A stretch of DNA of 64,000 nucleotides from Halolamina pelagica. GTDB taxonomy: Archaea > Halobacteriota > Halobacteria > Halobacteriales > Haloferacaceae. Below are positions 58,787-61,245 of the stretch, piece by piece. Made by a program: the position numbers and the translations under genes. The notes beneath the pieces are model-generated. The model worked only from the letters and a program-made list of their open reading frames with translations. It had not been told where the DNA came from and did no database searches. The stretch lies in the NCBI RefSeq assembly GCF_900115675.1, contig NZ_FOXI01000005.1, positions 124,001 to 188,000 of the forward strand. The letters run 5' to 3'. Numbering within the stretch: the first letter of the stretch is position 1; every line of letters begins with the position of its first letter.

Positions 58787-59074
58787 ATGAGCGAGGATTC
58801 ATCAGGGCGCAAGAACCTCCGGATGCCGGACGACGACCAAGTGTTCGGTGTCGTCACCGAGCACCTCGGTGGCAACCACGTTCGGGTTCGGTGTGCGGAC
58901 GGCGAGACGCGACTGGGGCGCATCCCGGGGCGGATGAAGTACCGCACCTGGATCAGCGAGGACGACGTGGTCATCCTCGAGCCCTGGGACTGGCAGGACG
59001 AGAAGGGCAACATCGAATGGCGCTACGAGGAGCAGGACGCCGAGCAGCTGCGTCGCGAAGGCCACATCGACTGA
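58787..59074 (+). CDS. eif1A: translation initiation factor aIF1A
   Basis: 95 aa. OB-fold factor that helps scanning and subunit joining, orthologue of eIF1A and bacterial IF1. Signature [58 protein letters not shown] (both shown only in part here). Basic RMKYRTW loop contacts the small ribosomal subunit. Length and order typical for archaea. Confidence 0.97.
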
Positions 59075-59140
59075 TTCTTCGGCGGCTGAACCGGGTCCCG
59101 CCCGCTTCGGTTCGACAGCGACGGTGCTGTTCGGCCGTCA

Positions 59141-59168
59141 ATTTTTTGTGTGTCAGTCATTAACACAC
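59141..59168 (+). promoter_or_regulatory. T-run and inverted repeat: eif1A terminator and/or promoter of the next transcript
   Basis: ATTTTTTG (59141-59148) is 67 nt after the eif1A stop and could end that transcript. It is also centred 26-27 nt before the ATG at 59171. GTGTGT (59148-59153) and ACACAC (59163-59168) form an inverted repeat with 9-nt spacing between the two, like a repressor site. Confidence 0.5.
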
Positions 59169-59170
59169 AC

Positions 59171-59236
59171 ATGAACCCCGTTGAGGCGGGTTCCGACGGG
59201 AACTACCGTCGTAGCGGACGAGAGGCGAACCGGTGA
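59171..59236 (+). CDS. possible 21-aa leaderless micro-ORF
   Basis: MNPVEAGSDGNYRRSGREANR. The ATG lies at ideal leaderless distance from the T-rich element at 59141-59148. The peptide is polar and basic toward the end with no recognisable domain. Its sequence also forms two hairpins (GAACCC/GGGTTC at 59173-59193 and CGACGG/CCGTCG at 59194-59211), so the region may be RNA rather than coding, or a leader peptide. Confidence 0.3.
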   Translation: MNPVEAGSDGNYRRSGREANR

Positions 59237-59344
59237 CCGAGTGATCGATCCCGAGACGCCGACCACGCTCGACGTTCGGACGGGCCGGGCGGCCGGGGTT
59301 GGCCGCCCGGCGTCGACTCCCTCGTCCCCGCCGGCAGGCGGGGC
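59171..59344 (+). ncRNA. candidate structured RNA between eif1A and the PIN-KH ATPase
   Basis: The gene-free span 59075-59382 is 308 bp. From the predicted start near 59171 it contains perfect hairpins at 59194-59211 (6 bp), 59285-59310 (CCGGGCGGCC-GGGGTT-GGCCGCCCGG, 10 bp, enclosed by TCGACG/CGTCGA) and 59326-59343 (CCCCGCC-GGCA-GGCGGGG, 7 bp). The last would make a natural 3' end. The ATPase then has its own TATA box at 59345. No match to SRP or RNase P RNA landmarks. Confidence 0.4.
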
Positions 59345-59350
59345 ATATAC
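59345..59350 (+). promoter_or_regulatory. TATA box of the PIN-KH ATPase gene
   Basis: ATATAC, about 35 nt upstream of the GTG at 59383; allows a leaderless or nearly leaderless transcript and supports that GTG over an in-frame extension from 59299. Confidence 0.55.
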
Positions 59351-59382
59351 ACCCTTTTGGGCCTCCGCCGCCTACCACACGT

Positions 59383-61245
59383 GTGAACGTCGTTCCCGAC
59401 ACCAGCGTCGTCGTCGACGGCCGCGTCTCCGAGCGCGTCGCCGACGGGCGCTACGAGGGTGTCACCGTCTACGTCCCCGAAGCCGTCGTCGGCGAGCTCG
59501 AAGCCCAGGCCAACGCGGGGTACGACCCGGGTTGGACTGGGTTAGAGGAGCTCCAGCGTCTCGCCGAGTACGCCGACGACGGCGAGATCCGGGTCGAGTA
59601 CGTCGGCCGTCGCCCCAACGCCGCCGAGACCGAAGGCGCCGGCGAGGGCGACATCGACGCCCTGATCCGCGACCTCGCGGCCGAGTACGACGCCACGCTG
59701 TTGACCAGCGACGGCGTGCAGGCCGAGGTCGCCCGCGCGAAGGGGCTCGACGTTGACTACGTCGAGCCCGTCGTCGACACCGACGCCGCCGAACCCGAGA
59801 CCGAGGGGCTGGCCGTCGAGGAGTTCTTCACCGACGACACGATGAGCCTCCACCTCCGGGCCGGCACACAGCCCAAGGCCAAACGCGGCGAGATCGGCGA
59901 GATGCACTACGAGCGGATCGCCGACGAGCCGACGAGCGACGAGCAGATGGAGGAGTTGGCGACCGACGTGATCGAGACCGCCCGGGCCTCCTCGGACGGC
60001 TTCATCGAACTCAGCGAGGAGGGGATGGACATCGTCCAGTACCGGGACTACCGGATCGCGGTCGCCCGCCCGCCCTTCGCCGACGCCGTCGAGATCACGG
60101 CCGTCCGGCCGGTCGCGAAGACCACCATCGACGACTACGCGATGGCCGACGAGCTCAAGGAGCGCTTCACCGAGCGCCAGCGCGGCGTGCTCATCTCCGG
60201 CTCGCCGGGCGCCGGGAAGTCCACGTTCGCCCAGGCGGTCGCGGAGTACCTCAACGACAACGACTTCGCGGTCAAGACGATGGAGAAACCGCGGGACCTG
60301 CAGGTCGGCCCCGAGATCACCCAGTACACCGAACTCGGCGGCTCGATGGAGAACACCGCCGACTCGCTGCTGATGGTCCGGCCGGACTACACCGTCTACG
60401 ACGAGGTCCGCAAGACCGAGGACTTCGAGACGTTCGCGGACATGCGGCTGGCGGGGGTCGGGATGATCGGCGTCGTCCACGCCACCCGCGCCATCGACGC
60501 GCTCCAGCGCCTCGTCGGCCGGGTCGAACTCGGGATGATCCCGCAGGTCGTCGACACCGTCGTCTACATCGAAGCCGGGCAGATCCACACCGTCTACGAC
60601 GTGGAGACCGAAGTGAAGGTGCCCGCCGGGCTCACCGCCGAGGACCTCGCGCGCCCGGTGATCATGATCACCGACAGCGAGACCGGCACGCCCAAGTACG
60701 AGATCTACACGTTCAACCGGCAGGTCGTCACCGTCCCGCTCGACGACGAGGGGGAGGAGCCCTCCGGGGTGAACCAGATCGCGAAACAGGAGATCGAGCG
60801 CGAGATCCACTCGGTCGCCCGGGGCCACGTCGAGGTGGAACTCCAGGGCCAGGACCGCGCGGTCGTCTACGTCGAGGAGGACGACATCTCCTACGTGATC
60901 GGCAAGGGCGGCGGCCGGATCACCGAGATCGAGGACCGGCTCGGCATCGACATCGACGTGCGCACCCACGAGGAGAACCCCGCCCCGACGGCCGCCAACG
61001 GTGGCGAGTCGGCCGGCTCCCCGCAGGGCGAGGTCGTCGACCCCGAGATCACCGCCCGCCACGTCGTCATCCGGCTGGACGAACACGTCGGCGAGACCGT
61101 CGAGGTCCGCGCCGGCGGCGATTACCTGTTCACTGCGACCGTCGGCCGCGGCGGCGACGTGCAGGTCTCCCGCGGCTCGGCGATCGCGGAGGAGCTCGAG
61201 GACGCGATCGACCGCAAGCAGCAGATCACGGTCGTTCCGGCCTGA
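59383..61245 (+). CDS. PINc-KH domain VirB11/PilT-like ATPase
   Basis: 620 aa from a GTG at 59383. Three parts: an N-terminal PIN nuclease fold (VVPDTSVVVDGRVSE, then GDIDALIRDLA and LLTSDGVQAEVA with acidic residues, 1-130), a secretion-type ATPase (Walker A GSPGAGKSTFAQA near 275-287; RPDYTVYDEVRKTEDF; GVVHATRAIDA), and a KH RNA-binding domain near 505-527 (ISYVIGKGGGRITEIE). A broadly conserved archaeal single-copy gene whose domain mix suggests RNA handling powered by ATP; precise role unknown. Confidence 0.93.
   Translation: MNVVPDTSVVVDGRVSERVADGRYEGVTVYVPEAVVGELEAQANAGYDPGWTGLEELQRLAEYADDGEIRVEYVGRRPNAAETEGAGEGDIDALIRDLAAEYDATLLTSDGVQAEVARAKGLDVDYVEPVVDTDAAEPETEGLAVEEFFTDDTMSLHLRAGTQPKAKRGEIGEMHYERIADEPTSDEQMEELATDVIETARASSDGFIELSEEGMDIVQYRDYRIAVARPPFADAVEITAVRPVAKTTIDDYAMADELKERFTERQRGVLISGSPGAGKSTFAQAVAEYLNDNDFAVKTMEKPRDLQVGPEITQYTELGGSMENTADSLLMVRPDYTVYDEVRKTEDFETFADMRLAGVGMIGVVHATRAIDALQRLVGRVELGMIPQVVDTVVYIEAGQIHTVYDVETEVKVPAGLTAEDLARPVIMITDSETGTPKYEIYTFNRQVVTVPLDDEGEEPSGVNQIAKQEIEREIHSVARGHVEVELQGQDRAVVYVEEDDISYVIGKGGGRITEIEDRLGIDIDVRTHEENPAPTAANGGESAGSPQGEVVDPEITARHVVIRLDEHVGETVEVRAGGDYLFTATVGRGGDVQVSRGSAIAEELEDAIDRKQQITVVPA

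Follow-up and report, generated by a model that had tools for sequence, protein, structure and literature searches.

The eIF1A/PIN-ATPase-KH interval and its features

The DNA of Halolamina pelagica analysed here is one continuous stretch of 64 kb, called the window below, and the interval under study is the gap between two forward-strand genes within it. Named loci and whole-genome relatives, among them H. pelagica, H. salifodinae and H. rubra, assign the window to Halolamina. The upstream neighbour encodes the translation initiation factor eIF1A (58787-59074; Pfam PF01176, E 1.2e-23), and the downstream neighbour, which begins with GTG at 59383, encodes a PIN-ATPase-KH protein (59383-61245; Pfam PIN, T2SSE ATPase and KH_1). 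The ATPase gene has a TATATA box of its own at 59345-59350, in front of the GTG start, and the corresponding promoter block, TATACACCCTTTTGNGCC (window 59345-59383), is strongly conserved across Halolamina species; the leader of this gene would be short. Next to the box lies a 7-bp hairpin, CCCCGCC/GGCGGGG (59326-59343, assigned to neither strand), which is missing or different in most other Halolamina species and is not regarded as part of the RNA described below. At the other end of the interval, the eIF1A gene is followed by a terminator-like hairpin with a T-run (59120-59147). In the window the hairpin GACGGTGCTGTTCGGCCGTC directly precedes the T-run of the small-RNA promoter, and the same bases (59120-59149) look like both an eIF1A terminator and the TATA region of the small RNA.

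The original prediction for this interval listed a T-rich element (59142-59147), a GTGTGT/ACACAC repeat, a 21-codon frame, hairpins of 6, 10 and 7 bp and a TATA box, and proposed from them a separate small transcript, coding or non-coding. All of the listed elements are present in the sequence, the GC-rich hairpin with 11 to 12 bp; the 7-bp hairpin, as described above, is not conserved, and a second 6-bp hairpin at 59194-59211 was perhaps not separated at that time.

The small RNA proposed from the comparisons below is non-coding, single-copy, about 140 nt long and located at 59172-59312 on the forward strand, as are all of its parts. It would begin with hairpin 1 (59173-59193), a 6-bp stem GAACCC/GGGTTC whose sequence varies while the pairing is kept, followed directly by hairpin 2 (59194-59211), CGACGG-GAACTA-CCGTCG, also with 6 bp and with a near-invariant GAACNA loop. 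A conserved linker (59212-59232) ends in GCGAACCG, for which Haloarculaceae usually have GGGATTGGCAYCG. The middle segment (59233-59282) differs from species to species in both length and sequence. The last part is a GC hairpin (59283-59312) of 11 bp (59284-59311), or 12 bp with the closing pair, and is a probable terminator. This conserved hairpin probably places the 3' end of the transcript near 59312 instead of at 59344, as had been predicted. The pattern of hairpin 2 has no second match in the 64-kb window even when two mismatches are allowed, and a model search of the genome gave 64 bits for the copy in question and 21 bits for the next-best match, so the gene is single-copy.

Promoter, conserved structure and the coding question

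The promoter of the small RNA, on the forward strand, consists of a BRE-like CGTCAA (59136-59141), a TATA-like TTTTGT (59144-59149) and a -10 element TAACA (59161-59165). When 59 homologues from two families were aligned on the start of hairpin 1, A at -32 in the BRE, TTWAAGT at -28 to -23 and TAACA at -11 to -7 stood out, the information content of a column reaching 1.8 bits and the TATA centre lying about 27 nt before the hairpin. These columns agree with the haloarchaeal promoter elements CGAAA, TTWT and WW at -10 (PMC4983044). Because they are conserved at fixed offsets from hairpin 1, transcription is predicted to start at the first base or two of this hairpin, about 59172. The inverted repeat TGTGTGT/ACACACA (59147-59153 and 59163-59169, without strand) lies between the TATA box and the start, that is, upstream of the predicted start and therefore outside the RNA. 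A dyad centred at about -14 recurs among 49 homologues beyond row-shuffled controls (z about 4, with no correction for relatedness), which suggests, as a lead rather than as a result, that it is an operator and that transcription of the RNA is regulated.

The two hairpins at the 5' end are supported by compensatory changes. In 43 distinct aligned homologues, 96.9% of the cells of hairpins 1 and 2 are paired and seven of the twelve pairs have double-sided changes, with a covariation score of 0.286 against 0.144 for shuffled alignments and none of 500 shuffles reaching the observed value, in an alignment that was fitted to the structure and hence favours it. The signal is much lower when the partner is slid by one to three columns. 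Hairpin 1 contributes double-sided changes in four of its six pairs and hairpin 2, in which 99.6% of the cells are paired, in three of six; swaps in hairpin 2 are seen directly, from CGACGG/CCGTCG to CGGCGG/CCGCCG and, in Halapricum, to CGATGG/CCATCG. The covariation check on relatives that had been proposed for this interval has consequently come out in favour of structure. The 3' GC hairpin has three compensatory pairs among six Halolamina sequences. On the other hand, the fold of the single sequence is only moderately stable (z = -2.3 against dinucleotide shuffles), and its minimum-free-energy form, which pairs the 3' arm of hairpin 1 with the loop of hairpin 2, was set aside in favour of hairpins 1 and 2, the ones with covariation support; since the single-sequence fold is modest and differs from the conserved one, comparison was needed to settle the structure. 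A pseudoknot between linker and loop (TTGGC/GCCA), judged by eye, is not claimed here, as some lineages break the pairing.

An analogous 3' hairpin, with GGCC in its loop and frequently a T-run behind it, is found in many Haloarculaceae copies. The self-complementary motif YGGCCR is usual in the terminal loop of most Haloarculaceae homologues, about 10-25 nt past the conserved linker, is absent in Halorhabdus, and in Halolamina is paired inside the stem. Such a terminal loop could form a kissing dimer. In three loci of Halomicrobium and its relatives (L150, L166 and L169), hairpin 1 is degenerate (AGTAGCGCCAGGGAGCAACC) and the GGCC terminal loop is also missing, with hairpin 2 and the promoter intact.

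Leaderless mRNAs are common in haloarchaea, and the 21-codon frame, from ATG at 59171 to TGA at 59236 on the forward strand, could be read as such an mRNA for a small peptide, starting at the start site of the promoter. ATG or GTG is found exactly at the predicted start in 39 of the 61 distinct homologues, as this explanation would have it, but the other 22 have neither, and the frame is not maintained even within Halolamina: its start or stop is lost, or the frame is shifted, in four of the seven species (G003, G004 and G006 lack the TGA, and G004 also has CTG in place of the start codon; in G001 one base is inserted and the frame ends early, after 14 codons). Length changes in hairpin 1 are not multiples of three and shift the frame through hairpin 2 between lineages, so that hairpin 2 would be read as PTGTTVV, DGNDRRE or SRRERPS by lineage, even within one genus. 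In several homologues the frame ends after only 3 to 15 codons, and which frame is open differs between genera. Because start and frame are not conserved and the indels of hairpin 1 are non-triplet, a conserved peptide is excluded by the comparison and the frame is judged not coding; a leaderless peptide gene is accordingly given a very small probability. Thus the small transcript stands as a predicted non-coding one, with its own conserved promoter, a 5' end at the predicted place and compensatory changes in its stems, and the coding option is dropped, since start, stop and frame are lost among close relatives.

Distribution and gene context in haloarchaea

The element is found upstream of the ATPase gene, at the same place, in all seven Halolamina genomes. 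Conservation among them covers the T-rich promoter, hairpins 1 and 2 and the GC hairpin at the 3' end, with the middle part variable. The first covariance model (62 positions), which was built from Halolamina sequences only, scored 44-47 bits in Halorhabdus, with E values down to 2e-10, and 26-35 bits in other Haloarculaceae. The matches outside the genus have, at the same distance upstream, a TATA-like box and, downstream, a GC hairpin, neither of which is in the model; in the linker and the 3' part the alignment of Halolamina with Haloarculaceae is poor. The second family is taken to be Haloarculaceae from its named members, and carriers include Halapricum sp. CBA1109, Halomicrobium katesii, Halorhabdus tiamatea and Halorientalis sp. 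IM1011, besides a probable Haloarcula and others. The first two were named through named loci and the next two through second replicons identical to named plasmids; the identification of the largest genus among the carriers (g46) as probably Haloarcula is by plasmid similarity only.

With refined models, whose list of matches is partly circular as they were built from earlier matches, scores of at least 50 bits were obtained in 72 of 148 Haloarculaceae genomes and in only 8 of 171 Haloferacaceae genomes, namely all Halolamina and one other genome (G025), against a background of about 21-29 bits. A few further Haloarculaceae genomes have weaker, promoter-bearing matches. In the same kind of search, about half of the Haloarculaceae and almost all other Haloferacaceae genomes had no detectable copy, and no homologue was found in the Haloferax or Halorubrum genomes searched. 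The RNA is therefore not universal in haloarchaea, as far as such models detect it, and its patchy presence could be due to loss or to horizontal gain. The copy from the probable Haloarcula had no match in plasmid and phage records, and 12 exact matches to the hairpin 2 motif in viral contigs were all at background by model score. Low scorers of about 33-37 bits, for example in Salinarchaeum (L151) and in G353 (L217), were set aside as coding-like and without a promoter. One contig (G433:C1) has two identical copies in identical surroundings near 23.5 kb and 3473 kb (L218 and L219), which would point to a large recent duplication or to overlap in the assembly.

At least five gene contexts were found: eIF1A/PIN-KH, tpiA/dinB, FAD-linked oxidase, aconitase and convergent purQ. 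Outside Halolamina the RNA is placed between tpiA and dinB, before dinB, before a FAD-linked oxidase gene or after an aconitase gene, and in one genome of the Halapricum group the next gene, purQ, is convergent to it. The synteny of eIF1A and the ATPase is confined to Halolamina among the genera compared, and a search ahead of the ATPase gene in other genera showed that the RNA is absent there. The suggestion that the transcript belongs to a neighbourhood of translation and RNA handling is not supported, as that context is specific to Halolamina. By contrast, conservation beyond the flanking genes, on which the original prediction had been staked, is borne out by homologues in other contexts and in two families. 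As the contexts differ, the RNA would be a gene of its own and not the leader of a fixed gene. In many Haloarculaceae (L102-L111, L118-L128 and others, including Halorhabdus, Halapricum and the probable Haloarcula) it lies directly upstream of dinB, the gene for DNA polymerase IV (Pfam IMS), on the same strand, sometimes with tpiA further upstream; in this family the gene may originally have stood before dinB.

A predicted small RNA family and its possible role

Homology in two families, compensatory changes in the hairpins, a near-invariant loop, a conserved promoter and independence from the neighbours point to a non-coding RNA gene. The interval very probably contains the gene for an independently transcribed, structured, non-coding small RNA of about 140 nt, most likely a trans-acting one, and the Halolamina RNA is best read as a member of a new family shared with Haloarculaceae.

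Other explanations of the same interval have to be weighed against this one. A cis-acting leader or attenuator of the downstream gene, of the riboswitch type, is suggested by the many Haloarculaceae in which dinB comes next on the same strand with a terminator-like hairpin in between; however, the downstream genes are unrelated across genera, purQ is convergent in one genome of the Halapricum group, and in Halolamina the RNA is followed by a separate TATA box for the ATPase gene, so a leader is improbable. Modification guide RNAs of the H/ACA and C/D types resemble the Halolamina RNA in size range and hairpin content, and a hairpin-bearing structure, a length of about 140 nt and a single-copy gene would fit such a reading. 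Such a guide nevertheless has very little probability: the RTGATGA C box that would go with a CTGA D box is present in none of the 61 homologues, only four of them have an ACA at most 7 nt from hairpin 2, no ACA directly follows the 3' hairpin of the window's copy, and the phyletic pattern is patchy. If the RNA guided modification at a conserved rRNA site, copies would also be expected in Haloferax and Halorubrum. Nor did ARAGORN report a tRNA or tmRNA near the interval; Rfam 15 (4227 models), whose families are the same kind of object, gave no match at gathering score near it; in the interval and at 13 homologous loci, searched with both gathering and permissive thresholds, any match was at chance level. 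Finally, there might be no separate RNA at all, only an eIF1A terminator and an ATPase promoter with GC-rich chance hairpins. The terminator-like hairpin and T-run after eIF1A and the modest z value of the single-sequence fold would fit this, but cross-family homologues in other contexts, covariation and the shared promoter make it hardly credible.

Four features of a stand-alone archaeal small RNA gene, namely its own promoter, conserved structure, lack of coding capacity and independence from the neighbours, were found. Stand-alone intergenic RNA genes are likewise known from Haloferax volcanii, for example those of sRNA132 (PMC6560208) and s479 (PMC8155600). Unlike these, the Halolamina RNA is defined by two covarying hairpins conserved across two families, and it has no homologue in the Haloferax genomes searched. 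No description of it was found in the literature searched.

For the predicted small RNA, transcription would start at about 59172, subject to regulation through the dyad between the TATA box and the start, and would stop at the 3' GC hairpin, the last hairpin acting as the terminator. Hairpin 1 would protect the 5' end, and the GAACNA loop of hairpin 2 together with the conserved linker would meet a common partner, which could be a protein or else a target RNA. From this anatomy, a trans-acting regulatory RNA that displays loop and linker to such a partner may tentatively be proposed. A wider role is doubtful, in which the RNA would be a widespread haloarchaeal class serving as a scaffold or regulator by means of the GAACNA hairpin, with kissing or partner binding through the GGCC loop, possibly global and operator-controlled.

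To our knowledge, few archaeal small RNAs have conserved structures supported by covariation. Haloarchaeal small RNAs have been studied mostly in Haloferax, and Haloferax appears to be without this RNA. With its near-invariant loop, its defined promoter and members in Halorhabdus tiamatea, Halomicrobium and the probable Haloarcula, the family offers a concrete target for deletion and for capture of its partner. As a new RNA family, it would enter the annotation of around 80 haloarchaeal genomes.
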